Shown here in pieces: positions 108 to 17,372 of a stretch of 31,019 nt of DNA. Position 1 is the first letter of the stretch. The number at the start of each line of letters is the position of its first letter. The notes under the pieces were generated by a model, which was given only the letters and a program-made list of their open reading frames with translations, had not been told where the DNA came from and ran no database searches. Source of the DNA: a virus; IMG/VR virus record IMGVR_UViG_3300040801_001424, positions 1 through 31,019 of that record. One strand, given 5' to 3'. Position numbers and translations under genes: made by a program.

Positions 108-108
108 T

Positions 109-1437: not shown

Positions 1438-1446
1438 GGTTTAAAT

Positions 1447-4400
1447 ATGTTAATTAACTTTAGACAAGGTATTGTAGAAACGCAACCAACTCCCGCAGCT
1501 ATAGCTTTAGGAGGAGGGCAAGTTAATTTAAACACTAATATGGCACCTACAATATTATCATTTGCTGATGGAAGTTCTGATTACCTGTTTATTGAAAATA
1601 CTTCATCGGTTCCAGCTTGGGCAGGACCATTCACTTTAGGTACAGATTACTGGTTGTATTGGGACATTGATAAGACTACAGCTAATCGTACCTTTGGAAC
1701 AACGCTAGTAGAACCCACTTTTGGAACAACAAGGCCATCTAGCCCATTGAATGATCAGCATTTCTTTGACACGTCTATTAATAAAATGGTAGTGTGGAAT
1801 GGTCAGCGTTGGATTGAAAAACTGCGAATATTTGCAGCCAAACTTGAAAATGGCTCAACGCTTATAAGAGAAACTGTAGGAACTAGTCAAGTTGGCCTAG
1901 ATACCGAATCATATTCAGGTGAGATTGTATTAGCGCCAAATGGTCTACCAGTTGTCCGAGCTAATGGAGAATTTCTTACAACTCAAACACCAACTAATTC
2001 CCAAGACAATCCGTTAAATTCTTATAAAATAGAATCATTACAAATTCGTGCAAAAGCAGTAGAGCCGATTCCCATTTATCATTGCGTAGCATATAAAGGA
2101 CCAAACCAAACTGGACTTGCAACAAATCGTTCTCCAGATAGAGGAAGATGTATTGGAGTATCTGTTGAGAACACTCTTACAAATGAAATGCGAAAATATG
2201 TAACTTTTGGTTATGTAACAAATCCGGCTTGGAATTTCACTGAAAATCCCGGTACTTTAGTATTTGTAGGAAACAATGGACAAGTAACGACAGATGTACC
2301 TACTAAAATATCTTTACAGAGAATTGGTACTGTTGTCAGTTCTGATACAATTTTGGTGGATATTGGAATTTTATTTAGAATAGTTGACCCACTAATTCCA
2401 TCGCCAACACCATCGCCGTCTCCAAGTGCAAGTGTTACACCAACACCAACACGAACGCCTCCGGTCACGGCCACGCCGACACCAAGCGCAACACAGACGG
2501 CTGCGGTCACAGTTACGCCTACGCCTACGCTGACGGTTACACCGACGCTTACAGCCACCTTGACGCCTACGCCAACCCCATCTAGTACTACACTCCCACC
2601 GGGGGCGGACGGCTTCTTAGCTGGTGGATATGGACCAACTGCTGGTACAGTTGTGGGTTTCCCGTTTGCCGCGCCGTTCACTGGTAATATATCACTTGGG
2701 AGTTTAATACTTACATCTGAAGATATAGAATCATCTGGAACTTCATCGGAAACTGATGGTTATATTCATATTAATGGAAATAGTGCTACATTTTTCCAGC
2801 AAATACATAAGTTTCCCCTTTCACCAACATCAATAACTACTAGTGTAGCTGGTTCCTTTTTAGCGCCTCAAACATATGGAGGGTCTGGGCTTCAATCTCA
2901 GACTGATGGATATTTTTCCGAAGGCATACCTGCTCCATTCCCATCAGCAGCGCCTACGGCGACAACAGTAGGTAGATTCCCATTTAGCGCATCGTTTACT
3001 AATGCTACATCAGTCGGTGAATTAGGGGAAGGTCATGGTTTTGCAGCACCTGCATCTTCTGCTACTGATGGATATTTAATTGGAGGGCAAGAGTTTAGTC
3101 ATTCAACTAATCCAAGCGGCGGTGGCGCAACTGATGAAATAACTATTTTTCCATTTGCCGCACCTTTTGCATCGTATACTACGATAGGTAAATTGAACTC
3201 ACGAGAAACTGACTCTTTGGGGGTTGGAGCCAATAGTGCAGTTTATGATAATGAAAATGTTTTCTTTATCGAAGATGGTAATGTAAATATTGAAACTTTT
3301 CCATTTACAAATACATTTGCCACATCAACATTATTAAGTAATGTAGTAGGATCGCGTGAAGGTGGAACGGGAGTATTTTCAGAAACAGATGGATATATTG
3401 CAGGAGGCTATTATTTTACCGCATCAGGGACAACTAGGTTTCCATTTAGTGCGGCCTTTACGTCTACTACAGACGTAGGAACTCTTGGACCATCTCCTTC
3501 CAGAGCAACTGGCCATCAAAGAACAGCTATTAGATTGCCGCCGATCCCAACCCCAACACCGACTCCAACACCAGCAGCAATTGTACCGCAGACTGTTACC
3601 GATGCATATATTGCGTCAAATGTACTTGATACTGGTCTATTCGCTGAGCAGCGGAAAATTGATACTTTCCCATTCGCTGCACCATTTGGAACAACAGCTT
3701 CTAATTTTGGGCAATTAACAAATGAAGCAACAAATAAAGCGGGTAATAAGTCTACAACAGATGGATACGTATCAGGCGGTGGAAATACAGTATCATATCC
3801 ATTTGCTGCGCCATTTGTAGAAACAACAGAAGGTGTATTAACCATAGCTACCTTAGCTAGCATTGGAGTAAGTAGTATAACAGATGGTTACTTAGTTGGC
3901 GGAATAGACCCGTCTATCAGTCCGTTCCTAAAAGGAACATTGAGAGACGTTCAGAGCTTCCCATTTGCATCCTCATGGACAACTACAATAACAGGTAATT
4001 TTGTAGGTATTGAAGTAAACCGGGCAGCTACTGCTTCAATACCAACTTCTAAGGGTATAATTGCATCCGGTGCGACTGATCCATATGGGAATACTATACC
4101 TCAAGTAACTAAAGCTATACAATCTTTCCCATATAATGCACCTTTCGCAACCAGTGATATAATAGGCTCATTGACCGATGGCAGACAGACAAATGCAGGC
4201 ATGAACAGCGATATTGATGGATTTGCTGCGACAGGAATTAACCCAACAATATCTCCTAGCGTGACATTAAATGTTGAAAAATATGAATTGAATTCGCCAA
4301 CTTTAACTACGGGAGTAGACATAGGTACTTTAGCGTTTGGGCGCTATGACGCAATGGGTGCTTCGAGTCCAACGGACGGATATCTAATAGGCGGTAAAAG

Positions 4401-4542
4401 TCCATTCCCGCAATCTGGCTTGCCTGTTATAACTGGACCTGAAAATATTGAAAGGTTCCCATTTGCGTCGCCGTTTGCTAGTACAGTTGATGTAGGGGAT
4501 TTGCGATTTGCTCGTGATCGCGGTTCTGTTGTGGAAAACTAA
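1447..4542 (+). CDS. Large fibre/adhesin with two kelch-like six-repeat domains and Pro-Thr linkers
   Basis: This 1031-residue protein is probably a tail-fibre or surface adhesin. Residues 1-310 form a beta-rich N-terminus with a fibre-style segment (KMVVWNGQRWIEKL). A Thr-Pro/Ser-Pro linker occupies about 317-385. Repeats of 40-60 residues follow, each roughly TDGYLxGG ... FPFAAPF ... GxL. I count six (about 387-695), then a second linker (PTPTPTPTP, about 698-712), then six more to the C-terminus. The repeat resembles the kelch-like FPFASDANATDVGDL type known from marine T4-like phage structural proteins, so two beta-propellers are likely. Repeat 5 has lost the TDGY core and repeat 10 is divergent. 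Receptor or glycan binding is inferred. The Pro-Thr linkers could be flexible spacers or glycosylation sites. A weak AAGG ribosome-binding site precedes the ATG. Confidence 0.8.
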   Translation: MLINFRQGIVETQPTPAAIALGGGQVNLNTNMAPTILSFADGSSDYLFIENTSSVPAWAGPFTLGTDYWLYWDIDKTTANRTFGTTLVEPTFGTTRPSSPLNDQHFFDTSINKMVVWNGQRWIEKLRIFAAKLENGSTLIRETVGTSQVGLDTESYSGEIVLAPNGLPVVRANGEFLTTQTPTNSQDNPLNSYKIESLQIRAKAVEPIPIYHCVAYKGPNQTGLATNRSPDRGRCIGVSVENTLTNEMRKYVTFGYVTNPAWNFTENPGTLVFVGNNGQVTTDVPTKISLQRIGTVVSSDTILVDIGILFRIVDPLIPSPTPSPSPSASVTPTPTRTPPVTATPTPSATQTAAVTVTPTPTLTVTPTLTATLTPTPTPSSTTLPPGADGFLAGGYGPTAGTVVGFPFAAPFTGNISLGSLILTSEDIESSGTSSETDGYIHINGNSATFFQQIHKFPLSPTSITTSVAGSFLAPQTYGGSGLQSQTDGYFSEGIPAPFPSAAPTATTVGRFPFSASFTNATSVGELGEGHGFAAPASSATDGYLIGGQEFSHSTNPSGGGATDEITIFPFAAPFASYTTIGKLNSRETDSLGVGANSAVYDNENVFFIEDGNVNIETFPFTNTFATSTLLSNVVGSREGGTGVFSETDGYIAGGYYFTASGTTRFPFSAAFTSTTDVGTLGPSPSRATGHQRTAIRLPPIPTPTPTPTPAAIVPQTVTDAYIASNVLDTGLFAEQRKIDTFPFAAPFGTTASNFGQLTNEATNKAGNKSTTDGYVSGGGNTVSYPFAAPFVETTEGVLTIATLASIGVSSITDGYLVGGIDPSISPFLKGTLRDVQSFPFASSWTTTITGNFVGIEVNRAATASIPTSKGIIASGATDPYGNTIPQVTKAIQSFPYNAPFATSDIIGSLTDGRQTNAGMNSDIDGFAATGINPTISPSVTLNVEKYELNSPTLTTGVDIGTLAFGRYDAMGASSPTDGYLIGGKSPFPQSGLPVITGPENIERFPFASPFASTVDVGDLRFARDRGSVVEN
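2395..2600 (+). repeat. Pro-Thr linker-coding repeat (first linker of the kelch protein)
   Basis: This is a degenerate trinucleotide-pair repeat of CCN-ACN and related Ser/Ala codons. It encodes about 70 residues of TPTPTRTPP, SATQTAAVTVTP and TPTPTPSS type. The third codon positions vary freely, so selection appears to act on the protein composition rather than on the DNA repeat. It separates the N-terminal attachment region from the first propeller. Confidence 0.85.
3539..3590 (+). repeat. Pro-Thr linker-coding repeat (second linker of the kelch protein)
   Basis: A short PTPTPTPTP-coding run lies exactly between the sixth and seventh kelch-like units. This supports reading the protein as two separate six-unit domains rather than one continuous array. 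Confidence 0.8.
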
Positions 4543-4582: not shown

Positions 4583-5389
4583 ATGAATGTATATGGCAAT
4601 CTTACTTTAGTTAGCGGCGAAATCATTAACTTTTATCCAGAAGAAGTTACTGCGGACCCTGCGTTCTTGGCAAGCGAAGAAGGCCGTGTCGTCTATAATT
4701 CTACAGATAATTCCTTGAAATTTAATAACGGAACTGCTTGGGTATCTGTTCAAACATCTGCTACATCAAGTAATTCTTTCTTAGAGACTTTAGGTACAAA
4801 TTGGATCAACCCTAACTTAACATTTAATCCAACAGATTTCAATGCTCTTGATAATGTTTCAGGATTGTCTACAAATGATAGTTTATTTGATGTAATTGAT
4901 CAACTAGATGATGCAATTACAAGTGCTTTAAACGTAGTAACTCTACGAGGAATTAACTTAAACTTTACATCAAGTACTATTGCCGCAAACAATATTTTAT
5001 ACTACGATGGTCTAGATTTTGTACCGGGGACTATCAACGATCTTGATACTATCGAATTAGATTTCGATGAATTGCAGAATGTAAACGTCCCTACCCCATC
5101 CGATAGAGACTTTATCATTTATGATTCAGACAACTCGGAATATATCAACAAGCAGGTTTTTTATAAGCAACAATTTCTTTCAGGCACTGTTAATGTTTTC
5201 ACAGTTAACCACAATTTGGGTGAACAATTCTGCCATGTTACTGTTATAGACAATAGTTTCTCCCCGCCGCGCAGATTAGCAGAAAGTGATTTGACTTCTA
5301 TTCAGTATAGTAATGCCAATACGTTGACTGTAACTACAACAACTAATAAGCCGGTTACTATAGTAGTTTCGTCCCTAGAAGGAATCTAA
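4583..5389 (+). CDS. Fibre-like virion structural protein
   Basis: This 268-residue protein starts with a motif typical of phage fibre proteins, GRVVYNSTDNSLKFNNGTAW (about residues 33-52), in which a beta-hairpin carries the W that often follows a N-G-T turn. The middle is rich in Asp/Asn/Leu (STNDSLFDVIDQLDDAI) and is probably a helical or coiled trimerising segment. The C-terminus (from about 190) is beta-rich: FTVNHNLGEQFCHVTVID resembles the small C-terminal domains of T4-like fibre proteins. It is the last gene of the plus-strand cassette. An AGAGG ribosome-binding site lies upstream. The 3' end overlaps the convergent small membrane-protein gene by 15 bases. It is probably a short fibre or a fibre connector. 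The exact position in the virion cannot be told. Confidence 0.7.
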   Translation: MNVYGNLTLVSGEIINFYPEEVTADPAFLASEEGRVVYNSTDNSLKFNNGTAWVSVQTSATSSNSFLETLGTNWINPNLTFNPTDFNALDNVSGLSTNDSLFDVIDQLDDAITSALNVVTLRGINLNFTSSTIAANNILYYDGLDFVPGTINDLDTIELDFDELQNVNVPTPSDRDFIIYDSDNSEYINKQVFYKQQFLSGTVNVFTVNHNLGEQFCHVTVIDNSFSPPRRLAESDLTSIQYSNANTLTVTTTTNKPVTIVVSSLEGI

Positions 5390-6547: not shown

Positions 6548-6567
6548 AAGGGGTATTACTACCCCTT
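6548..6567 (-). terminator. Rho-independent terminator after the nucleotidyltransferase gene
   Basis: On the minus strand AAGGGGTA pairs perfectly with TACCCCTT across a four-base loop and is followed by TTCTTTTT. The hairpin begins inside the TAA stop of the nucleotidyltransferase gene and separates it from thyA. Confidence 0.75.
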
Positions 6568-7468
6568 ACTTTCCGTTCACAATCTTGACAATTTGTTCAT
6601 ATTTCCGCATTACATCAGGATCAATAGACTGTGCTACTTCAAGACTACCAAACTTCATTTCAAGGCATTCAAGAAGCAATACCCGCAATCTATCAACATC
6701 AGGCTTTGCTGGCAATGAACTATTTGCAACCGTTGTGTCAAGTGCCTTCTCTTTATTGAAGAACCACTCTTCCAGTTCTTCTAGAGTCATAGAGCCTCTA
6801 CGAACCGCTTTAAGCTGTTCTCTCGCTACTTCTAGGTCTAGATCACCTTCAGTTAGAACCTGTTCAGCTTCGCGCATAAGGCGTACCACATGGTATGCAC
6901 TCTTAACGTCGTATCCAAACTGCTCAATAGCTTTGCGCCTCTTAGGTTTATAGTCGGCCAATGCTGCGCCTTCTTTACCAAAATCACGCTTTAGCTTTTT
7001 AAGCTCGCCAAATGCATATCCTCTGAGCTTAGTATACACATACTTAGACAGAAACAGTCTACGATGTGCCCGCATATGTTGACCGACTTCGCTTGCATGG
7101 ATTACACAACGATCAGGAACAAATAGTGAATCCAACATGTTTGGATTATTTTCCATACAAAGCTGAAAATACATTACAATACTATAAACAACCACATCAT
7201 ATTCGCGTTCTTCAAGCTGCATGTGATGTTTTTGCTGAGAAGTAAAGTTTTCCGGCTTTGGTCCAAAGTCGGGAACATGGCCTGCTAGGTGAGGAAACAC
7301 CATGCTTTTATGCGGAACGCACATCGCATAGATATCCATATCTGAAGTATCATTCGATACTCCGTAAGCTAGAGAACCCATGATAACTTCATAATCAGGC
7401 TCACCAACGAAAGAATATTTCGGGTGAAACAATTTATGTCTTACTAATTTTTGAACTACGGAAGACAT
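6566..7468 (-). CDS. Predicted nucleotidyltransferase of the RlaP type (RNA repair, COG3541-like)
   Basis: This 300-residue protein has a DNA-polymerase-beta-type nucleotidyltransferase signature. G31-S32 in MGSLAYGVSNDTSDMDIY is followed by D43 and D45, with a further acidic/hydrophobic strand (EREYDVVVYS) about 50 residues on. The rest is helical and charged. The layout resembles the RlaP family, which is linked to RNA repair and is found in many T4-like phages. I chose the ATG at 7468 because AAGGAG lies seven bases upstream. A longer frame to 7507 lacks such a site. It is probably cytoplasmic and its substrate is unknown. No RNA ligase is seen in the window. It is divergent from the structural gene at 7538, with a terminator at its 3' end. 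Confidence 0.75.
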   Translation of the reverse strand: MSSVVQKLVRHKLFHPKYSFVGEPDYEVIMGSLAYGVSNDTSDMDIYAMCVPHKSMVFPHLAGHVPDFGPKPENFTSQQKHHMQLEEREYDVVVYSIVMYFQLCMENNPNMLDSLFVPDRCVIHASEVGQHMRAHRRLFLSKYVYTKLRGYAFGELKKLKRDFGKEGAALADYKPKRRKAIEQFGYDVKSAYHVVRLMREAEQVLTEGDLDLEVAREQLKAVRRGSMTLEELEEWFFNKEKALDTTVANSSLPAKPDVDRLRVLLLECLEMKFGSLEVAQSIDPDVMRKYEQIVKIVNGK

Positions 7469-7508
7469 GGTTTCTCTCCTTTCCAACGCCTCTAAATAGT
7501 ACAGCACC

Positions 7509-7537: not shown

Positions 7538-8794
7538 ATGTCAACAGCTACCGAGCACGCACACTTTGAAGTCAAGGGACACGTACTCATCACCGATGAA
7601 AAAACGGGCGATGTGATTCTAGATCAATATAATGCTATTCATCCACAGAACATGGCACGTATCATTGCTCGTGCCCTTGCAAATGAAGATAATGGTATCA
7701 TCTACCGCATGGCTTTTGGAAATGGTGGAACATTCATTGATGCCGCAGGCCGCATCGTTTTCCGTCGACCAAACGATGGTAACAATGGAGCCGGATGGGA
7801 GTCAAGGCTTTATAGAGAAACATATTCTGAAATCGTTGATGAAAATGATCCTAATTGGAAAACTGATCCGGGTTCTGCTGGTCCCGACAACATACGTCCG
7901 GGTGGTGGTGCGAGTCCGGCTGATGATCCAGCAGGCGGTGGTGTATCCTCTGTAGAAGTGAGCCGTAATTCAAATATTATCACAACTGTCGTTCTCAATG
8001 AAAATGAACCATCGGGACAGCTTGGTAGTCAATCACAACCGGCACCCGTTCTAGAAGAAGATGAAAATACCTTTATTTTTGATGAAATAGGATTGTACAG
8101 TCCGGGTCTACCGGCTGTCAATACATCTGGTATTTCAAATGTAAATATTGGAAATAATAAACGCTCCAGTAATACCGTTGTCCCAAATCTTACAGCCGGT
8201 GATTACGCAGTACGCGTGACTATTGATGGTGTTGATCGAGATGCAATCATCACAGTTTCTGGTACGCTAGATGGTAGTGGACCAAGCGGTGAGTATACCT
8301 ATGGCGATCTGTGCGAATTCTTGAACACCAATGGTACAGGAGGCCCGTCTAGCTGGTCTATTAGCGGTTTTGACTTCAGTGCCGCAAACGGAGCATTCTT
8401 CTTTGTAACTGACGATTCTGGCGGTACATATCCATCCATTGCTGGTTTGGAATCTTTTGGATATTTTGCAGTTCAAAGTAAAACAACTGGTAGCAGTTCA
8501 ACACTTGTATTGCCAACCGCTGCGACTATTCTTGGCGACCCTAACTTATTCTATTTCTTGGCTAGCAACGTAGCTGGTAATATCAACATTAATCAAGAAG
8601 CTGGAAGGGATGCGGGTGTTATCAATGACTCAGCTACACCAGCGAATGAAAGAGAACGTTTACTCTCGCATTTGATTTTCCAACCAATTCTAAAATCGGC
8701 TTCTAGTATTCTAAGAATTACCTATACAATCACAGTGTCGGTAGCAGCTACCGACGACTCTGATCAAGGCGCTACGGTTAGTTCGACAACTTAA
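7538..8794 (+). CDS. Virion structural protein, probably tail or baseplate appendage
   Basis: This 418-residue protein has an N-terminal region (HFEVKGHVLITDEKTGDVIL, then NAIHPQNMARIIARALAN and IYRMAFGNGG) of a type found in structural proteins of marine T4-like phages. A Gly/Pro/Asp-rich segment follows (about 110-145, PGGGASPADDPAGGG), and then a beta-rich remainder. Residues 240-330 carry an inserted Gly/Ser-rich domain (SGTLDGSGPSGEYTYGDL). It has a candidate late promoter and a good ribosome-binding site. It converges with the sulfotransferase gene, the two stop codons sharing the tetranucleotide TTAA. No enzyme motif is visible. It could be a baseplate-associated or fibre-attachment protein; the structural assignment is fairly sure and the position in the virion is not. 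Confidence 0.65.
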   Translation: MSTATEHAHFEVKGHVLITDEKTGDVILDQYNAIHPQNMARIIARALANEDNGIIYRMAFGNGGTFIDAAGRIVFRRPNDGNNGAGWESRLYRETYSEIVDENDPNWKTDPGSAGPDNIRPGGGASPADDPAGGGVSSVEVSRNSNIITTVVLNENEPSGQLGSQSQPAPVLEEDENTFIFDEIGLYSPGLPAVNTSGISNVNIGNNKRSSNTVVPNLTAGDYAVRVTIDGVDRDAIITVSGTLDGSGPSGEYTYGDLCEFLNTNGTGGPSSWSISGFDFSAANGAFFFVTDDSGGTYPSIAGLESFGYFAVQSKTTGSSSTLVLPTAATILGDPNLFYFLASNVAGNININQEAGRDAGVINDSATPANERERLLSHLIFQPILKSASSILRITYTITVSVAATDDSDQGATVSSTT

Positions 8795-9363
8795 CCCTCA
8801 GTTAGCTTGTCGAACATCGTGTTTTGGTTAAGGTGAGGAACTTCTTTCTCAGGAATTTCCTTACCTAAAAACTTACATAGTGGTTCCCAGCCTTGTGAAA
8901 ACTTGTACATTAGAAGTTGATCTTGTGGGATATTCATTTCAACTTCTTGTCTATGTTCTAGGAATGACAATACCCCACTAGTCATATCAAAGGTTTGTCC
9001 TTTAAGAACTTCTGCCATTGCATCTAGATCACAAATTTGAAATCTAGATAGCTTCTGACGCTCTGCTTGAAGATCGTTATTATAGGTGCTAACCAGTCCA
9101 ACTTTATCCATAGAGCGGAACCACGCCTCTTGTTCTTTCTCAATATAAATAAACTTCGCATTTGGGTAACGATTCAGCATTTCTTTTACAAGAGATGGTC
9201 TGTATACTGGAGTATCTGTAAAAGCATCGTAGCGATCTAAGTAGCCTCCCAAGAAAGCTGGTCCCGGTGCATGAGTTGTTTTATATCCCAAATCGATTAG
9301 CATCTGAGACATCGACATCGTGCCTGTACGCGGCAAGCTTACTACAAAAATTTTAGTGCTCAT
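8791..9363 (-). CDS. Small P-loop sulfotransferase-like protein (copy 1)
   Basis: This 190-residue protein begins MSTKIFVVSLPRTGTMSMSQ. The S-LPRTGT-S loop (residues 9-17) matches the 5'-phosphosulfate-binding loop of sulfotransferases that use PAPS. AKFIYIEKEQEAWFRSM (about 73-89) fits the 3'-phosphate-binding strand and the following arm. YKFSQGWEPLCKFLGKEIPE near the C-terminus is the usual closing block. I chose the ATG at 9363, which overlaps the stop of the upstream gene and has AAGGA before it; an ATG 24 bases earlier is less well placed. It is the last gene of the glycan island and a paralogue of the gene at 10975. The likely role is transfer of sulfate to a sugar or protein. An alternative is a P-loop relative with another donor. 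No PAPS-making gene is visible. Confidence 0.75.
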   Translation of the reverse strand: MSTKIFVVSLPRTGTMSMSQMLIDLGYKTTHAPGPAFLGGYLDRYDAFTDTPVYRPSLVKEMLNRYPNAKFIYIEKEQEAWFRSMDKVGLVSTYNNDLQAERQKLSRFQICDLDAMAEVLKGQTFDMTSGVLSFLEHRQEVEMNIPQDQLLMYKFSQGWEPLCKFLGKEIPEKEVPHLNQNTMFDKLTEG

Positions 9364-10978
9364 TCTCTTTCCTTGTGTCGCCTTCATAGTGATATTTTCT
9401 ATGATGAGTGATAATACTAGCTAACAGGCATCCGGGCTTGATATAGCCATCGCGAATCTTGTCCATGACATAACTCATCCATGTTTGCTCGTATTTGTAT
9501 GTCCATTCTGTTTCTAGAAAAACTTTTTTATTTCCGCTTTTACCAAATAGAATTGGCCAATTGCAATAATGATATTCGCCTACAGCATAAGGTATGCCAC
9601 GGTATGTTGCAGTATGATTGATTATTGTCGGATTTCGTTTTCGACCATCCTCATGTTCAGGGAAATGCAAATCCTTCTTTTCTTGTGGAACATTATAAAA
9701 TGCCCAGTTCTCATGGTTATCTCCAAAGAATTCACTAAACGATAGTTTCAAGTAGTCTAGTTCTTCTATTTCAAGAATGTCAATGCATTTATCAAATACT
9801 CGTTGGAAGAACGTTGTGAAACCACTTTTACATGTGCGAACGCTATCATTCAAAAGCATATCATCTTCGAAGAATACCATATATTTGTGACCACTTTTAT
9901 TAAAATGTTCAGCAGCAAATTGGCGTCCGCCGCAAATACCGATGTTATCAAACTTGAACTCGGTAAAATCATGTTCCGCGAAAATTTGTTGGTACTCTTC
10001 ATTTACAGAAGGATCAGTTGAATTATTGATAACATATTTTTTACAGTCTGCAAACTCCCCCGGCAAAGCATTCTTAAATGATTCTACCCACATTTTAAAT
10101 TGTTCAGGCAGATTAAAGGTTAATGCATAGATTGCTAATCTTTCATCATTCGATTCATCTTCATCACTATTAATGTTATTGAGAGCGGTAATGATAAGAC
10201 CATTATCTTGAATCCATTCGATATGACACATTTCAGGATGACGATAGGTCAATAGCGTAAAGATGCTTTCCTCTGTACCCATGTAGCCGGATTCAAGCGT
10301 TCCTTTTAATAGCTGGTAATACATATCGTTCATATCAGCTATGGCAGTACGGCTACCACCAAACATTCCACCCCGTGCAACCCGCGTAGTTTCTTGATGC
10401 GCTAGGTCGTTAAACTCTTTCTTGGGGAAGCCGTGTACTTCGACTTTTCCATCGTAAGGAAAGCAAATGTACATCATTTTGTGCATACGCTTTACAACTT
10501 TGCGTGCAAATTCTTCATGTATATTTGCCGCAGGATCGCCAATAGTATTAGCTATTCCCGCATCGATCCAGAGGAAGTATTTCGTATTGAAAAAGTTGAA
10601 AATTGCTGCATCATTTAACATGAACTGTTTAGACATGACTAGTGGGTTGTAAAGCTCTAGCTGTGATTGTGGACTATCGGGAATCCAGCCAGCTTGTCCA
10701 CGCCATTCTTCTTTTTGCCTAATCGTGTTGGTGATATCAAAGAATGGGAACTCATATAGGGTTTCGATTGGTCGTTTTACTACACGAGTGTTATCATGAC
10801 TTCTATGTTTCCAAACTATTTCTTCTACATCGTCATCACAAAACACTACTAGTGGCAGTTCAACTTTAAGAAGCCTTTCAAAGCATTCTATATAATGATC
10901 AAATGATCTACCAAAACCCTCTAGGTCACCACGACCAATATCATATAAAGCAGTTACAAGAGTTAAATTTGTATTCAT
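9353..10978 (-). CDS. Two-domain glycosyltransferase: HtrL/WlaTC-like domain fused to a GT-A-like domain
   Basis: This 541-residue protein has two parts. Residues 1-270 resemble the HtrL/YibB (WlaTC) family: a start of LTLVTALYDIGRGD, then LPLVVFCDDD, a core KYFLWIDAGI (about 133-142) and ARGGMFGGSR (about 201-210). Residues 280-541 form a second GT-A-like fold, with YALTFNLPEQFKMW at the start, a nucleotide-sugar metal motif FFEDDMLL (EDD at 371-373) and a Cys/His-rich C-terminal region. It is probably a bifunctional sugar transferase acting on a nucleotide sugar. It starts overlapping the stop of the upstream sulfotransferase gene (ATGA) and ends overlapping the next. The fusion is unusual. 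A frameshift cannot explain it because one frame is open throughout. Donor and acceptor are unknown. Confidence 0.75.
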   Translation of the reverse strand: MNTNLTLVTALYDIGRGDLEGFGRSFDHYIECFERLLKVELPLVVFCDDDVEEIVWKHRSHDNTRVVKRPIETLYEFPFFDITNTIRQKEEWRGQAGWIPDSPQSQLELYNPLVMSKQFMLNDAAIFNFFNTKYFLWIDAGIANTIGDPAANIHEEFARKVVKRMHKMMYICFPYDGKVEVHGFPKKEFNDLAHQETTRVARGGMFGGSRTAIADMNDMYYQLLKGTLESGYMGTEESIFTLLTYRHPEMCHIEWIQDNGLIITALNNINSDEDESNDERLAIYALTFNLPEQFKMWVESFKNALPGEFADCKKYVINNSTDPSVNEEYQQIFAEHDFTEFKFDNIGICGGRQFAAEHFNKSGHKYMVFFEDDMLLNDSVRTCKSGFTTFFQRVFDKCIDILEIEELDYLKLSFSEFFGDNHENWAFYNVPQEKKDLHFPEHEDGRKRNPTIINHTATYRGIPYAVGEYHYCNWPILFGKSGNKKVFLETEWTYKYEQTWMSYVMDKIRDGYIKPGCLLASIITHHRKYHYEGDTRKENEH

Positions 10979-11547
10979 TTACGGCTACCTATACTTTGTT
11001 TGTGCAGATGGGGTATGTCTCTATCTGGGATATTTACACCAAGAAATTCGCAAAGAGCAGGCCATCCATCCGAAAATTTATAAACTAATCCCAAATCCTT
11101 AACGCGGTCTCGATGATCATAAAAGCATTTTTCGATATGTTTTCTGACTATACCTTTATTATTGAAATCGAAATCTCCGAAAACTTCGTGATAATATCTT
11201 TTATCATCACGTTCGCCATCATTTTTAAGGGCATCGTCGGGAGTGTTGTTAAAACGATGATAAGTACGAAGTAGATTTGTGCTCTTGGTCATAGAATCAA
11301 ACCAGCTATCAAAATCTCTATCAACATATACAAACTTACAGTTAATCTCATTTTGATTTTTAAAATATTCTATTACTGAATATGCAAATGCTGGAGTGTC
11401 GGCAAAAGCAATTCCATGCTTTGCTAATTTAAATATGTTACGAAGTGGTGCATGATACCGCCTATATCCTAGTGTTTCCATCATTGCACAAATTGAAGTT
11501 GTACCTGTTCTTGGGAGACTCGTTACTATTACACAGTTATCAATCAT
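10975..11547 (-). CDS. Small P-loop sulfotransferase-like protein (copy 2)
   Basis: This is a 190-residue paralogue of the protein at 8791. CVIVTSLPRTGTTSICAMM carries the phosphosulfate-binding loop (residues 10-18). CKFVYVDRDFDSWFDSMTKS (about 70-89) corresponds to the second nucleotide-binding strand and helix, and VYKFSDGWPALCEFLGVNIP closes the fold. The two copies share the loop, the DTP motif near residue 50 and the C-terminal block, but their middle parts differ, so they may act on different positions or sugars. It overlaps both neighbours by four bases, which suggests translational coupling inside the island. A sulfotransferase role is inferred from the family signature only. Confidence 0.75.
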   Translation of the reverse strand: MIDNCVIVTSLPRTGTTSICAMMETLGYRRYHAPLRNIFKLAKHGIAFADTPAFAYSVIEYFKNQNEINCKFVYVDRDFDSWFDSMTKSTNLLRTYHRFNNTPDDALKNDGERDDKRYYHEVFGDFDFNNKGIVRKHIEKCFYDHRDRVKDLGLVYKFSDGWPALCEFLGVNIPDRDIPHLHKQSIGSRK

Positions 11548-12248
11548 CTTGCTATTACCGGCTGAAATTCTGTTCTATGTTCAGTTCTTAAACAATCGTT
11601 CTTTTTAAATGGAGAGCCGCATATATTATGCCACTCAACCTCGGGGGTATTATGTAAAGCTATGCCAATTTCTACAGCTTCAAAGCTAGGGTTTACATGA
11701 TTTATACTGGAAGTTTCACAAATCCATGCCCATAGATCAATAAATCTGGTTATTCTTTCATTACGTAGCATAACTATAATAGTTTCAGTAACATAGGGAA
11801 TACCGGGGAATTTTAAATCTATGCTTCCTTCCAAAAAATGGGCAAGTCTATGATACTTTCGACCACTAGCTGCTTTTTCGTGAATGGGATTAAACCAGCG
11901 TATTGTTGCATATAAATCTTTAAGAATCATATGTTCAAATAGCTTAGTTCGTCTCCAAAAAATAATATCGGCATCTAAAAAGATTATTCTTTCATATTCT
12001 GGGAATCTGTCATATGCATCCTTGACTACCATACCCTTTAGACTATAGTTAAACATGCCTGAAATTTTATATGGCACTTTAAACAAATCATTTATTTCAA
12101 TAGTCGTATCATGATTAATGGGCGTGGCTTTATCATGATAGATAACTGTATCAAATTCAGGATAAAATTCTTTGACACTCTCAGCTAATCGCTCTGCTTG
12201 ATACGCGCGCTTTTCACCAACGATTATAGTACATATTAAAGTCTTCAT
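11544..12248 (-). CDS. GT8-like glycosyltransferase
   Basis: This 234-residue protein has a Rossmann-like start (KTLICTIIVGEKRAYQAERL) and a metal/nucleotide-sugar motif in RIIFLDADIIFWRR, with D-A-D at about 92-94, as in retaining GT-A glycosyltransferases of the glycogenin/GT8 type. KGMVVKDAYDRFPEYE, just before, is the usual helix that positions the donor. The C-terminal part is enriched in His and Cys (EVEWHNICGSPF). It is shorter than typical GT8 enzymes (about 280-330 residues) but all the core strands seem present. It overlaps its neighbours on both sides by four bases. It probably adds one sugar in the island pathway; the sugar cannot be predicted. Confidence 0.65.
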   Translation of the reverse strand: MKTLICTIIVGEKRAYQAERLAESVKEFYPEFDTVIYHDKATPINHDTTIEINDLFKVPYKISGMFNYSLKGMVVKDAYDRFPEYERIIFLDADIIFWRRTKLFEHMILKDLYATIRWFNPIHEKAASGRKYHRLAHFLEGSIDLKFPGIPYVTETIIVMLRNERITRFIDLWAWICETSSINHVNPSFEAVEIGIALHNTPEVEWHNICGSPFKKNDCLRTEHRTEFQPVIAR

Positions 12249-13171
12249 GCATTAATGCCAATATCCTTAAATAGATCAGAGAATCCAATCTGTTCCGGCC
12301 TATAGCTTGGCCAGCCATCGTGATACCAAGTTTCGAAAGTGAATATCTTAGCTTTTTCATTCAAATATTCAGGATCGTTTGTACAGCGTCTAGTGAGAAT
12401 ATAAGTAAGAATGTCTTCCTCTTTTACTAAGGCATTGTGTTCTAGAATTTCTCTACAGCACTGCGCTCCCTCTGCGGCCAACTCATACATCATCTTAACT
12501 GGTCCCCCAAATAACCCTCCAATAACAGTGCCGCCAAATTTCTTCGGTATTTTAGGCAGAGGCATTGGATCGCTATGCTGAGGGCCGCGTGTCATAAGAT
12601 ATAACAGTTTTCCTTCACCCGTATAATTACGGAGCATATTTGGAAACGCCGGGTTAAAGATCAAATCATTAGCGTGAGTCATTTGATATTTTTTAGCTGC
12701 ATTGGGGAATTCGGCTGGATTAGACGAGTTATATCTTGGAGAGATAATACCGTCGTGTGATAATCCTGCATCAATCCAATACAAATATTCGTCGGTGTCT
12801 AATCCGACCTGTTCAGCAGCGTGCATTATGAAATCAAACTTACCCCACATAATTTCAAGGCAACGCTGACGCCAGCTAATTCCTTCGATGTATAGTTTTG
12901 GATCAGACTGACGAACTCGCTCAAAATCTTCATGGTAGGGCGAATCTTCTAAGTTAAAATTGAAAAATCGAGTTTTGCCTTTTCCATGGTAAAACATTGC
13001 TGGAGCAAATGTCAGGAAATTAGAATAGTCAGTGTAACAGTAGAACGGGACATCCATTTGCAACATCTGGCCAAGAGAGTAAGCATACTGCGTACCGCGA
13101 TTCAATCTACCTTGAAAACGAGTGTCAAACAGTCTGTCATAAAAACAAGAAACAAAACTCACATTACTCAT
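12245..13171 (-). CDS. HtrL/WlaTC-like glycosyltransferase
   Basis: This 308-residue protein starts with SNVSFVSCFYDRLFD and has the family core DEYLYWIDAGLSHDG (about 127-141) and VIGGLFGGPVKMMYELA (about 217-233), the same two landmarks as the first half of the fusion protein at 9353. DVPFYCYTDYSNF near residue 40-52 corresponds to the nucleotide-sugar-binding strand. Family members are found in surface-polysaccharide loci, where they are treated as sugar transferases; WlaTC-type proteins belong to lipooligosaccharide loci. It overlaps the carbamoyltransferase gene by eight bases and the GT8-like gene by four. No membrane segment is visible, so it is probably cytoplasmic or membrane-associated. 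Confidence 0.7.
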   Translation of the reverse strand: MSNVSFVSCFYDRLFDTRFQGRLNRGTQYAYSLGQMLQMDVPFYCYTDYSNFLTFAPAMFYHGKGKTRFFNFNLEDSPYHEDFERVRQSDPKLYIEGISWRQRCLEIMWGKFDFIMHAAEQVGLDTDEYLYWIDAGLSHDGIISPRYNSSNPAEFPNAAKKYQMTHANDLIFNPAFPNMLRNYTGEGKLLYLMTRGPQHSDPMPLPKIPKKFGGTVIGGLFGGPVKMMYELAAEGAQCCREILEHNALVKEEDILTYILTRRCTNDPEYLNEKAKIFTFETWYHDGWPSYRPEQIGFSDLFKDIGINA

Positions 13172-15410
13172 CTGCTATTACCTTAATCTTATCATTAAAT
13201 TTATTTTTTAGAATTCTCAGCATATCGTCAGGAGTTGCACCTGTCTTAGAATTCAACGCATGCAGCAGTTGTCCTTCAAACTGAACAGAAAGCCATTCTA
13301 TATCTTGCAATGAACCCCATACGACATCTTGTGATAGGGTATCACCATTTTCTAGCATGAAAATATTAGCACGATCTTCTTTGCTGAAGCTATTTATGGT
13401 ACGTGCCAAGCTTGCTGGACTGTCATATCCATCTAATGACAAGAACATATGATATCGTGTTCTGAAGTAATTTTTATGCATGATAGGTTTAATCCATAGC
13501 AATCTTACATATGGATCAAATGCTGAAATCTCATGCGGAACCTCATACACGCTTTCCATGAGTTCATGGTAATATAAATGCTTTTCTTCAATGAACCAGA
13601 AAGTTTCATCAGGAAATTCTAGCTCAAGTTCTCTCCCGCCATTCTCAGAGGTGATAATAACACATTTAGGGTCTTCCGACAACGCGCGGGTGATCATTTC
13701 CTTGTATTTCATAAAGTTTTCATTAGGATTCAACGCTAACAAATAATTAGTAGTTTCCTTTGCCAACGGAAGCACATTTTCACTTACGATACTTCTCGTA
13801 AATTTCTCTTCATCGAATTTTCGGAATATCAAACAATTATTGTAATATACCGCGTCCAGTTGAGTCTTGTTTAAGATTTCCAGTGCATCGGAAAGACGAC
13901 TTAGAATAGGTTTGCCATTAACGTTAAATGATGTATTAAGCATCACACCATGGCCAGCAAATTCTTCGAAATGAGAAATCAAGTTGTATAAAAACTCGTT
14001 CTGCTGCTTAGTAACAGTTTGTAGTCGGCCTGTACCGTCTTCATGAGTGATAGCCGGAAGCTTCTCACGCCATTCCTCGCGCACCTTAGCCACGTAAACC
14101 ATGTGGCGCGACTCTGCACCGTCTGGGAATTCAAAGTACTTAGATGCGTCCTGAAGACGTGTCACAGGTGCAAACGGGCGATACCATTCGCGATCTTTAA
14201 CTTTCTTGTTGAGGATATCCTTCATCTTACCGACAGGATTACATAAAATACTGCGGTTCCCCAATGCCCGAGGACCGTGTTCAGAATTACCGTTAATTAC
14301 TCCAACAATATTACCATTTGCAATGAATTCAGCAAGTCCGCGTTCATACACACCTTCAACCATTGTATATGCGCCGTTTTCGACGTAAGATGAGAGCATA
14401 TGCTGGTCAACTAGTGGAATACCTGCGTAAGTCAGGTCCACTTGTTGTGCGGGATTCTGATACTTTAAAAGACCTCCAACAGCAATACCACAGTCGTTAG
14501 TATTCGGGGGGACAAACACTTCACCGCGTACATCAAGAATACGCTTGTTCAATAGAACATTCAAGGCACATCCGCCAGCTAAGGTTACTGGCAAATCAGG
14601 GAATTCATCAAAAAATGGTTGTGCAAATTTGAAAAACTGTTCCTCGAACACATACTGAGAAGTAGCTGCCATATCCCACGCGAATTGGCCCTCAAAGCGC
14701 GTTCTAATATCAAACTCATCTACCCCAAGAGCAGTCATTAACTTAGGTAGAGCGTCGACCTTAGCCTCTGCGCCGCCAATGTATGAATTGCCTGTATAAT
14801 TAAAGGTTTCGTAGAATTCATGGAATGCAGGCACCCATTCCTGACGAACTGTACCATAAGAACAAAGTCCCATTATCTTACCAGCATAGACGAGGTTGCC
14901 AATGTTCAAAGAGTCCCTACGAATATCCTGAAGATGATCAGCAATGATCATGTATGGGAACCCAAGGTCTTGATTAAACTTCTTTATGAGTTGAATACCA
15001 TCATTACGGCTGGTACGATAGACGTTAAAGAAGCCCCCGTCGCCACCACCATCGAACGTGAAGGTGAGCGCATCTTGATAAGGAGACTGATAAAATGCTG
15101 TGGCGGCGTGGGCTTCATGATGATCAAAGTTAGCATGAATATTATAGCTATACTTTGGTTTTAGTCTTTTTAAATCACTATAGTTCGTGAGATATACATC
15201 AATATGACTTCTATCGGTTAAACCGAGAAGATAATCAAGAATCTCATCAAACACAACTTGCGGGTAGCCTGCCGGGAGATACGTAATCAACCCGGCATTC
15301 TTTTTGTTCAACCAACGCTCTACTTCGACCACATGATATTGGCCTTTGTAGTACATTGCTACTGAGGCATTATGAGAACCATAAGCCGAAATTAACAACT
15401 GATCGTTCAT
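13164..15410 (-). CDS. Carbamoyltransferase of the NodU/TobZ family with a C-terminal extension
   Basis: This 748-residue enzyme should use carbamoyl phosphate and ATP to carbamoylate a sugar hydroxyl. The Kae1-like domain begins ISAYGSHNASVAMYYKG. Metal-binding histidines lie in FDHHEAHAATAF (95-106), with FTFDGGGDGG (117-126), LAGGCALNVLLN (277-288) and PPNTNDCGIAVGG after it. The carbamoyl-transfer (YrdC-like) part carries SEHGPRALGNRSIL (376-389), REWYRPFAP (407-415) and MLNTSFNVNGKPI (490-502). All are family landmarks. Residues 545-748 form an extra domain that I do not recognise and that typical 550-600-residue members lack. GAGGTG precedes the ATG. It is the second gene of the island. 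TsaD/Kae1 is excluded because the second carbamoyl-transfer half is present. Its target is likely the glycan built by neighbouring transferases. Confidence 0.9.
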   Translation of the reverse strand: MNDQLLISAYGSHNASVAMYYKGQYHVVEVERWLNKKNAGLITYLPAGYPQVVFDEILDYLLGLTDRSHIDVYLTNYSDLKRLKPKYSYNIHANFDHHEAHAATAFYQSPYQDALTFTFDGGGDGGFFNVYRTSRNDGIQLIKKFNQDLGFPYMIIADHLQDIRRDSLNIGNLVYAGKIMGLCSYGTVRQEWVPAFHEFYETFNYTGNSYIGGAEAKVDALPKLMTALGVDEFDIRTRFEGQFAWDMAATSQYVFEEQFFKFAQPFFDEFPDLPVTLAGGCALNVLLNKRILDVRGEVFVPPNTNDCGIAVGGLLKYQNPAQQVDLTYAGIPLVDQHMLSSYVENGAYTMVEGVYERGLAEFIANGNIVGVINGNSEHGPRALGNRSILCNPVGKMKDILNKKVKDREWYRPFAPVTRLQDASKYFEFPDGAESRHMVYVAKVREEWREKLPAITHEDGTGRLQTVTKQQNEFLYNLISHFEEFAGHGVMLNTSFNVNGKPILSRLSDALEILNKTQLDAVYYNNCLIFRKFDEEKFTRSIVSENVLPLAKETTNYLLALNPNENFMKYKEMITRALSEDPKCVIITSENGGRELELEFPDETFWFIEEKHLYYHELMESVYEVPHEISAFDPYVRLLWIKPIMHKNYFRTRYHMFLSLDGYDSPASLARTINSFSKEDRANIFMLENGDTLSQDVVWGSLQDIEWLSVQFEGQLLHALNSKTGATPDDMLRILKNKFNDKIKVIADE

Positions 15411-15418
15411 AAATCACC

Positions 15419-16780
15419 TCAGTAATTAACAGGCTTGTCGATCTTTGTCAACCAACCTCTAGATTCGCTGTGTGCCCATACTGTCCATGTGACAGGTTTA
15501 TGCGCAGAAACAAAGATCAAACGGTAGTCAAAGAATCCATTCGGACTATTGATGTAATCATAGATTTGCTGTTTGTTAAGGTCTTTGCGTTCAATCTCGT
15601 TACCGTCTGCATCGTGACAACCAACATAGAAGAAATCGTAGTCATCAACAATCTCACCAAGCTCGCTATGGTGGAAACACACATGCACATCGTTAGAGCT
15701 AGCAAATGTAGCTTTCCACTCTTCTTCAGTTTCATATGGTTCAGCGTTTGGTGGTTCAACTCGATCAAGAGTTTTTTGTTGCACGCCGCGATATTGAAAG
15801 CTAATACCGGCATATTCTTCATATTGGCGAACAGTACGAACATTACCAAATCCAAACTCACCAAAATCAATTTGAGAAGGGTCTTCGCCATCCATACCAA
15901 AAAGAATACGATTGCGACGGTGGCAAATGTCATTACGCTCTACCCAATCTAGTTTGATATTACCGGCATCTTTGTTTGGTGTGGTATGATCATCCCATAC
16001 TTTGGTTCGACCTTCGCGAGTATACTCGTGCCATGCAACAACCTTGTGAGGGTGGAACAAATCATAGCCCCAAGTAAATGCACGCACTGCAATAGAAATC
16101 TCTTCCCCGTGGAAGAAATACTCCGGGTCGTGTGGAACTTCAGTTACAAAGCTACCATCTGCAAAGCAGAAGTGTGCGCTGTAGAATCGTGAGCGCATTG
16201 GCTTTGTGCGTTCTTGCCAATCATCAATCGTGCTAGGGCGGAAGAATACAGCACCTTCAGGAATGAATCTATCAAAATCCATCTTCCAAGGCGACTGGAC
16301 TCTAGCGGCTGGATCGTTCTGCGGGTTGAACGATGGAATATAAGCTGTTAGCACAGGCTTAGGCACCCCATCTTCTTCGCGGAGTTGTTCAAGCATTTCA
16401 ATGCATAGATCATCCCAGCCATCAACGAAACGGTGATGTGAATCAAGTTGTAGTGTATACTTCTCGCCGGTATATTGTTTCTGAATTTGATATCTTGCCC
16501 AACATGCACCTTGCGCATCAAAATAATTAACATCTAGAATAGTAAACTTAGTACCAAGATTGATGTGAGAGCCAACTAAAATACCTTCGAGTACAGCGTC
16601 GTCAAAATCAATACCTAAGTTTTCAAAATCTTCTACGGTTTCATCATCGCCGTGTTGCCAGCAAATGCAAATATGTAAATCTTCGGGGCGGGTTGCATGC
16701 TCTAGCATGTCTTGTAATGTGGGGATAAGTTGTGGATCGCGATAGGAAGCAATCTGCACGAAAATTGTGTTCTCACTCAT
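15419..16780 (-). CDS. GT60-like GlcNAc-transferase family glycosyltransferase
   Basis: This 453-residue protein starts TIFVQIASYRDPQLIPTLQD, the signature opening of the GlcNAc-transferase family related to Dictyostelium Skp1 GnT1 (GT60). It continues with CWARYQIQKQYTGEKYTLQL and the donor/metal motif DSHHRFVDGWD (D113-S-H115). FFHGEEISIAVRAFTWGYDLFHPH (about 232-255) and WHEYTR are family-typical later blocks. In eukaryotes such enzymes add GlcNAc to hydroxyproline; bacterial and phage members have unknown acceptors. Residues 340-453 form an additional C-terminal part (DVHVCFHHSELGE ... WTVWAHSES). It is the first gene of the island, with AAGGAG nine bases before the ATG and a late-type octamer CATAAATA upstream. 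Glycosyltransferase function is likely; the acceptor is open. Confidence 0.85.
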   Translation of the reverse strand: MSENTIFVQIASYRDPQLIPTLQDMLEHATRPEDLHICICWQHGDDETVEDFENLGIDFDDAVLEGILVGSHINLGTKFTILDVNYFDAQGACWARYQIQKQYTGEKYTLQLDSHHRFVDGWDDLCIEMLEQLREEDGVPKPVLTAYIPSFNPQNDPAARVQSPWKMDFDRFIPEGAVFFRPSTIDDWQERTKPMRSRFYSAHFCFADGSFVTEVPHDPEYFFHGEEISIAVRAFTWGYDLFHPHKVVAWHEYTREGRTKVWDDHTTPNKDAGNIKLDWVERNDICHRRNRILFGMDGEDPSQIDFGEFGFGNVRTVRQYEEYAGISFQYRGVQQKTLDRVEPPNAEPYETEEEWKATFASSNDVHVCFHHSELGEIVDDYDFFYVGCHDADGNEIERKDLNKQQIYDYINSPNGFFDYRLIFVSAHKPVTWTVWAHSESRGWLTKIDKPVNY

Positions 16781-16812: not shown

Positions 16813-16820
16813 TATTTATG
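16813..16820 (-). promoter_or_regulatory. Candidate late promoter for the glycan island (CATAAATA)
   Basis: CATAAATA reads toward the GT60-like gene and ends 33 bases before its ATG. It differs from TATAAATA by one base. A terminator immediately upstream insulates it, and all seven genes downstream overlap or nearly touch, so it is the only evident promoter of the island. Confidence 0.5.
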
Positions 16821-16848: not shown

Positions 16849-16876
16849 AAAAAAGGGAGGTTGCCCTCCCTTTTTT
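16849..16876 (-). terminator. Strong terminator hairpin between the 141-residue protein gene and the glycan island
   Basis: AAAAAAGGGAGG pairs perfectly with CCTCCCTTTTTT across the loop TTGC or GCAA. On the minus strand the hairpin follows the TAA of the gene at 16876 and ends in a T run. The arms carry A and T tracts on both sides, so the hairpin could work in both directions. Confidence 0.85.
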
Positions 16877-17301
16877 TAGTAGCCTTGTGGCTGATTAGGT
16901 GGGCGTCCCGGCCCTCGGCGCGAAGCTTTCCTAGCCTCTGCTTCCTCATCAACTTTCAATGCCACACCTGCTGTACCAGATGATGGTGTCAAGAAGACAC
17001 CGCTAGGCGTCATGACTTTAACAAGCTGGTGGAAATACTCCAACGCGTTCATGCCATTGCCTAATGTGGTGTTACCAAGCAAGTCCCATAGTTCATATCG
17101 CGAAGCGTCTCGACGCTCCAAGATTTTTACAAGTCTATTTTGGTCAATAGGATCAAGCCTATCAGTTCTAATGAAGTAAAGATCACCGCTGTACTTATCA
17201 CGCTTTACAACGACAACCTCAACTGCAACACCATTGTCTTCCAAATCAACCCACTGTACGTGAGGTAGTCTTGGGTGATACCCTAGTGGTTGTACACTCA
17301 T
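16876..17301 (-). CDS. Conserved-looking phage protein with AT-hook-like tail, unknown function
   Basis: This 141-residue protein was placed at the ATG at 17301 because GAAGGAG lies directly upstream. A longer frame to 17355 would contain the late-type octamer TATAAATA inside its coding part and is unlikely. The N-terminal part (MSVQPLGYHPRLPHVQWVDL) leads into a beta-rich core with a VVVVKRDKYSGDLYFIRTDR hairpin, then a helical section (DQNRLVKILERRD, NALEYFHQLVKVM). The C-terminus RRGPGRPPNQPQGY contains a GRP core like an AT-hook, with basic residues before it, suggesting nucleic-acid contact. It is flanked by its own late-type promoter and terminator, so it is probably a single-gene late unit. 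I do not recognise the family. Confidence 0.6.
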   Translation of the reverse strand: MSVQPLGYHPRLPHVQWVDLEDNGVAVEVVVVKRDKYSGDLYFIRTDRLDPIDQNRLVKILERRDASRYELWDLLGNTTLGNGMNALEYFHQLVKVMTPSGVFLTPSSGTAGVALKVDEEAEARKASRRGPGRPPNQPQGY

Positions 17302-17333
17302 GTCATACTCCTTCGTAGAATCTAAAGTACAGT

Positions 17334-17341
17334 TATTTATA
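17334..17341 (-). promoter_or_regulatory. Late promoter octamer, exact TATAAATA
   Basis: TATAAATA matches the T4 late-promoter consensus exactly. It reads toward the gene at 17301-16876, with 32 bases between the octamer and the ATG, a distance like that of the other late octamers here. It overlaps the start of the divergent Nudix promoter region. Confidence 0.65.
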
Positions 17342-17343
17342 CC

Positions 17344-17372
17344 TTGAAATTTCATGTGAGCTAAGCTATACT
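17344..17372 (+). promoter_or_regulatory. Sigma70-type promoter for the Nudix gene (TTGAAA-17-TATACT)
   Basis: TTGAAA at 17344-17349 and TATACT at 17367-17372 are separated by exactly 17 bases and lie 25 bases before the ATG at 17398. This is a good match to the host housekeeping promoter. The divergent neighbour has a late octamer beside it, so the intergenic region seems to join early and late signals. Confidence 0.6.

Follow-up and report, generated by a model that had tools for sequence, protein, structure and literature searches.

Closest described systems

Enzymes of glycosyltransferase family GT60 are known from protists. In Dictyostelium and T. cruzi, they are polypeptide alpha-N-acetylglucosamine (GlcNAc)-transferases that start mucin-type O-glycans on Thr or Ser, and the family also makes the hydroxyproline glycan of Skp1 (PMC8724618, PMC3769586). 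Glycosylation of phage virions is likewise known; in mycobacteriophages, phage-encoded glycosyltransferases act on virion proteins, the acceptors being the C-termini of capsid and tail-tube proteins (PMC12619734). For Xanthomonas phage XacN1, at least two virion glycoproteins were reported, with ORF328 and ORF334 suggested as their makers (PMC5852040). In this study, a 31,019-base IMG/VR virus fragment (IMGVR_UViG_3300040801_001424, the window) was analyzed, in which positions 8791 to 16780 were found to be filled by seven minus-strand open reading frames (ORFs). This island, whose genes are numbered g1 to g7 by position from the left, includes a GT60 homologue (g7), and it is probably a late, phage-encoded cassette for mucin-type O-glycosylation of the phage's own virion, with fibre stalks as the acceptor. 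The gene identities, motifs, predicted folds, conserved partnership, link to threonine-proline (TP)-rich genes and promoter placement presented below were computed here. The features of the island are as follows (nt, nucleotides).

8791..9387 (probable start 9363), minus strand: g1, Sulfotransfer_4 sulfotransferase homologue (Pfam, 3e-38, 132.2 bits)
9353..10978, minus strand: g2, two-domain GT-A glycosyltransferase, HtrL_YibB (PF09612, 1.1e-21) plus a half resembling TAGT (TET-associated glycosyltransferase, sub-threshold)
10975..11547, minus strand: g3, Sulfotransfer_4 sulfotransferase homologue (Pfam, 1.9e-24, 87.2 bits)
11544..12248, minus strand: g4, GT8-like glycosyltransferase with LDAD (sub-threshold GT8 match, DxD)
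12245..13171, minus strand: g5, single-domain HtrL_YibB-like glycosyltransferase with a WIDAG motif (profile-profile match only)
13164..15410, minus strand: g6, NodU/TobZ-type O-carbamoyltransferase with a C-terminal extension of ~220 residues (PF02543, 1.5e-22; PF16861, 8.6e-59)
15419..16780, minus strand: g7, GT60 polypeptide alpha-N-acetylhexosamine (HexNAc)-transferase homologue, predicted O-glycan starter (PF11397)
16813..16820, minus strand: T4-late-type promoter motif CATAAATA, 40 nt 5' of the g7 start, function predicted
16850..16877, minus strand: rho-independent-terminator-like hairpin GGGAGG-GCAA-CCTCCC with A/T runs on both sides, dividing the island from gene 16876-17355

The protist enzymes (Dictyostelium Gnt2, T. 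cruzi TcOGNT2 and the cytoplasmic Skp1 enzyme Gnt1) share with g7 the PF11397 family and a GT27-related fold. Candidate acceptors rich in T and P are common to both systems, and a soluble cytoplasmic form exists in the Skp1 enzyme. Unlike the protist systems, the island is a viral operon in bacteria, with no Golgi, in which g7 is accompanied by HtrL/TAGT, carbamoyl- and sulfotransferase partners and the acceptor and sugar are deduced from the genes.

The phage represented by the window is jumbo-myovirus-like; at the island locus, its closest relatives among isolates are XacN1 and the Stenotrophomonas phages RAS14 and CM1. XacN1 ORF330-334 and the RAS14/CM1 locus include an orthologous GT60 protein (58-61%), NodU with the same extension, HtrL and HtrL/TAGT, beside phrog_11259 and tail genes as in the window. 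Unlike the window, these phages carry no sulfotransferases and have shorter TP runs; XacN1 otherwise keeps the island order, and RAS14 additionally lacks g4. ORF334 is the GT60 orthologue of g7, and the XacN1 virion glycoproteins are the only experimental support for the proposed cassette.

The other described systems are more distant in acceptor or gene content. Mycobacteriophage acceptors differ from the fibre stalks proposed here, and we know of no GT60, carbamoyl or sulfo genes in mycobacteriophage glycosylation. The NodU/Nol clusters of cyanophages (Bellamy, S-SCSM1 and P-SSM2) resemble the island in having a NodU homologue and, in Bellamy, also an HtrL homologue, but identity is 29-40%, GT60 and TP-rich genes are lacking, and sugar-nucleotide synthesis genes lie around them. 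The phage 5-hydroxymethylcytosine (5hmC) carbamoyltransferase (PMC8670742) and g6 are both phage-encoded members of the same two-domain NodU/TobZ superfamily; the window lacks the signature residues of the DNA-type enzyme and the thymidylate synthase homologue with Asp177 that belong to that system.

The lead enzyme g7

Against PF11397 (GlcNAc), g7 scored 264.9 bits (E=1.9e-78; Pfam gathering cut-off, 21), and it matched phrog_24687 at 1.6e-178. A search of the PDB with the g7 sequence gave no match, and the structure was therefore modelled with AlphaFold2 from an alignment of 40 viral homologues, reaching a mean predicted local distance difference test (pLDDT) value of 92. When the model was compared with the PDB by Foldseek, the first 11 matches were all polypeptide N-acetylgalactosamine (GalNAc)-transferases. 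The same class supplied the first 29 matches in VIA-align, with Z 19.2-22.1 over 263-322 residues, the next fold following at Z 17.3. The matched enzymes were from animals and Toxoplasma, with Z up to 22.1 for 286 residues at 3.8 Å. The GT-A fold predicted for g7 was thus nearest to the GT27 polypeptide HexNAc-transferases; a lectin domain is not expected in GT60. DSH, HGEE and HEYTR were invariant in 40/40 viral homologues, the first conforming to DxH, the metal/donor motif of GT27 enzymes. The modelled fold points to a protein acceptor without proving it.

TP-rich genes and their link to GT60

In many GT60 loci, a neighbouring gene was found to encode a long TPTPTP, TVTPT or TSTPT stretch with the composition of a mucin domain. 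Neighbourhoods were counted in 57 dereplicated viral loci; a mucin-like TP-rich ORF was present in the examined flanks of 32, and in 14 it was a same-strand ORF less than 400 nt upstream. NodU loci and repeat-bearing contigs, neither selected for GT60, served as controls. Of the 80 viral NodU loci, 29 had GT60 and 51 lacked it; TP-rich ORFs were present in 12 of the former and in none of the latter (p = 8.6e-7). The corresponding figures were 12/27 and 0/47 after dereplication (p = 8e-7), and 11/19 and 0/18 when only loci of 15 kb or longer were counted. Across whole records, the TPTxTPTP codon pattern occurred in 30/50 GT60 records and in 1/50 NodU records from loci without GT60 (p = 7e-11), and PF11397 was not found in that single control record. 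In the reverse test, PF11397 was detected in 8 of the 58 contigs whose mucin-like ORF contained (TP)5 and in 0/50 with (AP)5 (p = 0.007). The TP-rich gene lay just upstream of the GT60 gene, convergent with it or flanking it, and because these layouts differ, a single inherited block is disfavoured.

In the window, the genes bearing on a possible acceptor are the following.

1447..4542, plus strand: fibre-like protein of 1031 residues, mucin-like and TP-rich, the proposed acceptor (composition, homology)
4583..5389, plus strand: virion structural protein homologue (phrog_16122, 2.6e-15), between the TP-rich gene and thyA
7538..8794, plus strand: conserved fibre-base-like protein (phrog_11259), convergent with the island

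In the first of these proteins, residues ~315-384 comprise 24 T, 19 P and 8 S in 70 residues, and a second run, TPTPTPTP, occurs near residue 700. Its N-terminal part was 43% identical to the product of 18754-19698 in L092 (L-numbers denote contigs compared with the window), its C-terminal repeats were 31% identical to L005 and L089, and it weakly matched virion structural protein phrog_20787. XacN1 and RAS14 proteins with terminal TP runs also matched a virion structural protein family. The phrog_11259 gene adjoins the island in XacN1, RAS14 and most jumbo relatives. In L089 (12840-17930) and L065 (16374-21401), the homologue of the phrog_11259 protein forms a single polypeptide with a TP-rich stalk and beta-propeller repeats, and because of these fusions the TP-rich and phrog_11259-type proteins are plausibly one structure.

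The L065 protein has 1676 residues, with an N-terminal phrog_11259 domain, a TP-rich stalk, ~12 DUF285 repeats and WD40-like beta-propeller repeats. Just 5' of the TP-rich gene of the window, ORF 91-1437 (plus strand) showed trypsin-like serine protease features (GDSGSALI and NTHVA) with a sub-threshold PF00089 match, and a homologue was found at 13030-14367 of L064.

Other enzymes of the island

The g6 protein contains a Kae1-like N-terminal and a YrdC-like C-terminal domain, retains the HHxxH and GPRALGNRS motifs and matched the structures of NovN, TobZ and GdmN. Against the NCBIfam NodU equivalog it scored 160 bits, under the cut-off of 1000, and it is therefore a member of the superfamily rather than NodU itself. 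Its C-terminal extension was common to XacN1, RAS14, L004, L005 and L006; a second HtrL domain was considered for this extension and rejected (hhalign probability 8.7%).

The g2 model (pLDDT 92) showed two GT-A domains, the N half nearest to GT6 blood-group transferases and the C half to B4GALNT1, POMGnT1 and GnT-I, while LH3, LARGE1 and chondroitin polymerase matched over both domains. For g2, assignment to HtrL_YibB is based on the PF09612 match and the GT-A fold. The g5 protein, which had no Pfam match, was assigned by profile-profile alignment with the HtrL (N-terminal) half of g2 (hhalign probability 98%, E=4e-14), and both carry WIDAG. The GT8 match of g4 was sub-threshold (Pfam E=0.0064), with an invariant DxD and a weak match to glycogenin.

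Both sulfotransferase homologues scored well above the Sulfotransfer_4 gathering score of 22.8 bits. In g1 and g3, the LPRTGT P-loop, which binds 5'-phosphosulfate, was invariant in five homologues. The Asp of an (A/S/T)DTP motif was also invariant and aligned within the TDLP segment of Schistosoma sulfotransferases (SULT-OR), whose Asp there we take to be catalytic. The closest solved relatives of g1 and g3 use small-molecule substrates.

Island layout and promoter

The predicted direction of transcription is from g7 to g1. Three of the six junctions are 4-base ATGA overlaps (12245-12248, 11544-11547 and 10975-10978). At the remaining junctions, g7 and g6 are separated by 8 bases, g6 overlaps g5 by 8 bases and g2 overlaps g1 by 35. 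With the internal ATG at 9363 as the start of g1, only 11 bases of this last overlap would remain; that ATG is preceded by a AAGGAAAG Shine-Dalgarno sequence and agrees with the start positions of homologues.

The CATAAATA motif before g7 conforms to the T4-type late promoter, [T/C]ATAAATA shortly 5' of a start. Seven copies of [CT]ATAAATA were present in the window, of which five lay 25-43 nt before a same-strand start, a placement expected by chance at 4.9% of positions (P ~6e-6). Starts so marked include those of 27581-28906, 28999-29586 and, using an internal ATG as in homologues, 16876-17298. The motif was not enriched in number (7 observed versus 4.8 expected), so the promoter claim is strengthened by its placement and not by its count. 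At about the same place before the island, CATAAATA was found in L005 and L013 and variants of it in L009 and L065; it was not found there in L004, L006, XacN1 or RAS14. The hairpin at 16850..16877 was read directly from the sequence and is absent from the list of the terminator scan; similar hairpins precede the island in L005, L009, L010, L013 and L065. No credible terminator was found within the island, which gave 3 terminator-like matches compared with 6.7 in shuffled sequences. We infer that the island is transcribed late and as one unit.

The first-pass annotation of this DNA had described a seven-gene island, tightly packed with ATGA-type overlaps, behind a late-type motif and without an internal terminator, and the layout, the non-random placement of the motif and the terminator counts agree with it. 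Its NodU/TobZ carbamoyltransferase and two sulfotransferase-like genes were confirmed by profile search. Its four glycosyltransferase genes with five domains (g7, g5, g4 and the two-domain g2) also hold, because g4 has the invariant DxD and g5 aligns with the HtrL half of g2.

Conserved neighbourhood in relatives

A profile scan of IMG/VR yielded at least 585 viral GT60 homologues. Among isolated phages, GT60 was present in 3/50,697 records, and no island-type sulfotransferase was found. The order GT60-NodU-HtrL-GT8-(sulfotransferase)-HtrL/TAGT-(sulfotransferase) recurred in L005, L006 and L009, with GT60 and HtrL/TAGT proteins 57-72% identical; all seven genes were kept in L005, and one sulfotransferase in L006 and L009. 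The sulfotransferase count was two for the window and L005, one for L006, L008, L009, L011 and L015, and zero for XacN1 and RAS14. An HtrL/TAGT partner was found in 51 of the 57 GT60 loci, with NodU in 10, GT8-like genes in 12, HtrL-like genes in 12 and a sulfotransferase in 3. Viral loci with this sulfotransferase type had GT60 close by in 7/8 cases, directly adjacent in L090, L091, L093 and L094. Among the families listed, the remaining GT60 neighbours were mostly glycan genes (GT10, GT25, GT34, GT_PLOD, RXYLT1_C, pyruvyl transferase, UDP-galactopyranose mutase and methyltransferases). GT60 and HtrL/TAGT form the core of these loci, the carbamoyltransferase being frequent and the sulfotransferases the rarer, variable part. 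The mix of sulfate- and carbamoyl-transfer genes had earlier been called unusual, but the comparison of gene order showed that the island is not a one-off, its core recurring in nearly all relatives.

In bacterial genomes, pattern searches found a GT60 relative in 14 of ~85,000 species, some of them likely phage contigs and 3 with a TP-rich neighbour. In the bacterial or metagenome-assembled contigs L422, L423 and L431, GT60 and HtrL/TAGT adjoin TP-rich ORFs.

Proposed pathway

From these data we infer which sugar is donated and how it is linked, what the acceptor is, in what order and when the steps occur, and how the phage would benefit. Late in infection, the island would be transcribed from the CATAAATA promoter. 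In the cytoplasm, g7 would transfer the first HexNAc from a host UDP-sugar to Thr, and perhaps Ser, in the TP-rich stretches of fibre or baseplate-associated proteins, above all the product of 1447-4542. The sugar chain would then be lengthened by g2, g5 and g4. Sugar hydroxyls would be carbamoylated by g6, using carbamoyl phosphate and ATP, and sulfated by g3 and g1, using 3'-phosphoadenosine 5'-phosphosulfate. Carbamoyl and sulfate would be late, optional, lineage-variable caps, a role that fits the sulfotransferases because their presence varies between relatives. The outcome would be an extended, protease-resistant, hydrated and charged stalk keeping the adhesive tips off the particle; that such stiff stalks also allow escape from recognition is, like the benefit as a whole, speculation. 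Glycan mimicry, blocking of recognition and exclusion of superinfecting phages, raised in the first-pass annotation, are neither favoured nor disfavoured by these data. As a tentative extension, to which we give slightly less than even weight, a widespread class of tailed phages may encode a complete cytoplasmic mucin-type pathway, begun by GT60, extended by HtrL/TAGT and in some cases capped with carbamoyl and sulfate, and may thereby convert TP-rich fibre stalks into viral mucins, sulfated and carbamoylated O-glycoproteins made by phage enzymes alone in the bacterial cytoplasm.

Several points weigh against virion mucin-type glycosylation. The glycan, its linkage and the modified residue in this phage are deduced from the genes, and the XacN1 glycoprotein bands are unnamed in the main text of that report (PMC5852040). 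Enzymes with a fold of the g7 type can use non-protein acceptors. The TP-rich stretch of the window is short (~80 residues), and TP repeats can serve as plain linkers. No TP-rich ORF was present in the examined flanks of 25/57 GT60 loci and PF11397 was not found in 50/58 (TP)5 contigs, so that GT60 and TP repeats are not strict markers of each other. Kinship among phages inflates the Fisher tests even after dereplication, and the largest control records were few (at 100 kb or more, 11/12 for GT60 versus 1/4).

Alternative explanations

The first-pass annotation had left open whether the virion or the host envelope is decorated. Its virion reading is retained and made specific by the GT60 lead enzyme and the TP-rich fibre neighbours; its envelope reading, in which the enzymes alter lipopolysaccharide (LPS), capsule or another surface glycan, excluding phages or changing progeny adsorption, is held as a rival that we regard as unlikely. 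Such remodelling is the usual interpretation of phage glycosyltransferase clusters and has been proposed for those of cyanophages (PMC7824862), where the NodU loci of Bellamy and S-SCSM1 lie amid nucleotide-sugar synthesis and LPS-like genes, and HtrL/YibB was first named in E. coli. However, g7 belongs to a family with polypeptide acceptors and its modelled fold is that of polypeptide transferases, and among the NodU loci the TP-rich link is specific to those with GT60. The island locus, unlike those of cyanophages, is without nucleotide-sugar synthesis, flippase, polymerase or membrane genes, and a late-type promoter suits the building of particles more than early host takeover. Envelope remodelling fits the cyanophage NodU clusters better. 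In Synechococcus phage Bellamy (L335, 8239-11566), an HtrL homologue lies two genes from a NodU homologue, without GT60, in a nucleotide-sugar cluster, possibly the same enzymes in a form directed at the host surface. An acceptor elsewhere in the virion (capsid, tail tube or the phrog_11259 protein), the TP stretches being simple flexible linkers, has a precedent in the mycobacteriophage capsid and tail-tube proteins (PMC12619734) and would account for the nearly half of GT60 loci with no TP-rich ORF nearby. It was considered improbable, given that GT60 strongly and repeatedly predicts TP-rich genes and that protist GT60 enzymes act on mucin-like domains (PMC8724618).

Hypermodification of DNA, with hydroxymethylated bases carbamoylated and glycosylated, is suggested by the ability of phage NodU-like enzymes to make 5-carbamoyloxymethylcytosine (PMC8670742), by the TAGT-like half of g2 and by the presence of thyA in the window. 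The thyA product keeps Asn (GIPMNIASYA) at the E. coli Asn177 position, where modified-cytosine contigs mostly have Asp, so that no Asp177 (dCMP-type) partner was seen in the 31-kb window, and g6 keeps the equivalents of TobZ G421/R423 (GPRALGNRS), which are changed in the proven 5hmC enzyme (GPRALCNTT). Because of these residues, DNA modification is disfavoured and appears very unlikely. In addition, NodU is flanked by glycosyltransferases in unmodified contigs (PMC8670742), and the 104 proteins encoded beside GT60 gave 41 Pfam families, among the 25 listed of which none was a base-modification family. A chance set of moron genes without a common product would explain the gain and loss of sulfotransferases and GT8 between relatives, but it is scarcely credible beside the recurrence of the island order in L005, L006 and L009 and of the core pair in 51/57 loci.

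Relation to earlier work and significance

Phage virion glycosylation and the protist GT60 enzymes were already known, and the XacN1 authors had guessed that its glycoproteins are phage-made. To our knowledge, no earlier work describes a phage cassette that is initiated by GT60, includes carbamoyl and sulfo genes and is linked to TP-rich fibres. The literature search, of incomplete coverage, returned no paper tying phage GT60 to protein glycosylation, and full-text searches returned nothing on PF11397 with phage or on phage mucin-like glycosyltransferases. Metagenomes contain hundreds of phage GT60 genes, and isolates have almost none. If virion mucin-type glycosylation is correct, a modification usually taught as eukaryotic would be a common phage trait, the long TPTP repeats of many environmental phages would be explained, and HtrL/YibB-type proteins would gain a function. 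It would also provide soluble enzymes with which bacteria could produce glycopeptides that are mucin-like, carbamoylated or sulfated.

Additional observations

A hydroxyproline (Skp1-like) route via the ORF at 24111-24746 (minus strand) was not relied on, this ORF having a weak phrog_61 match, no Pfam match and metal-ligand motifs that are apparently replaced. It resembles 2-oxoglutarate-Fe(II) oxygenases and is kept in many related contigs; by eye, HxD and H look replaced, and it is possibly degenerate or repurposed. The ORF at 6566-7507 (minus strand) encodes an RlaP-type RNA-repair nucleotidyltransferase (PF10127, 4.4e-12). In L005, positions 1-3243 encode a family B DNA polymerase with an intein-like insert within its YGDTDS catalytic motif.

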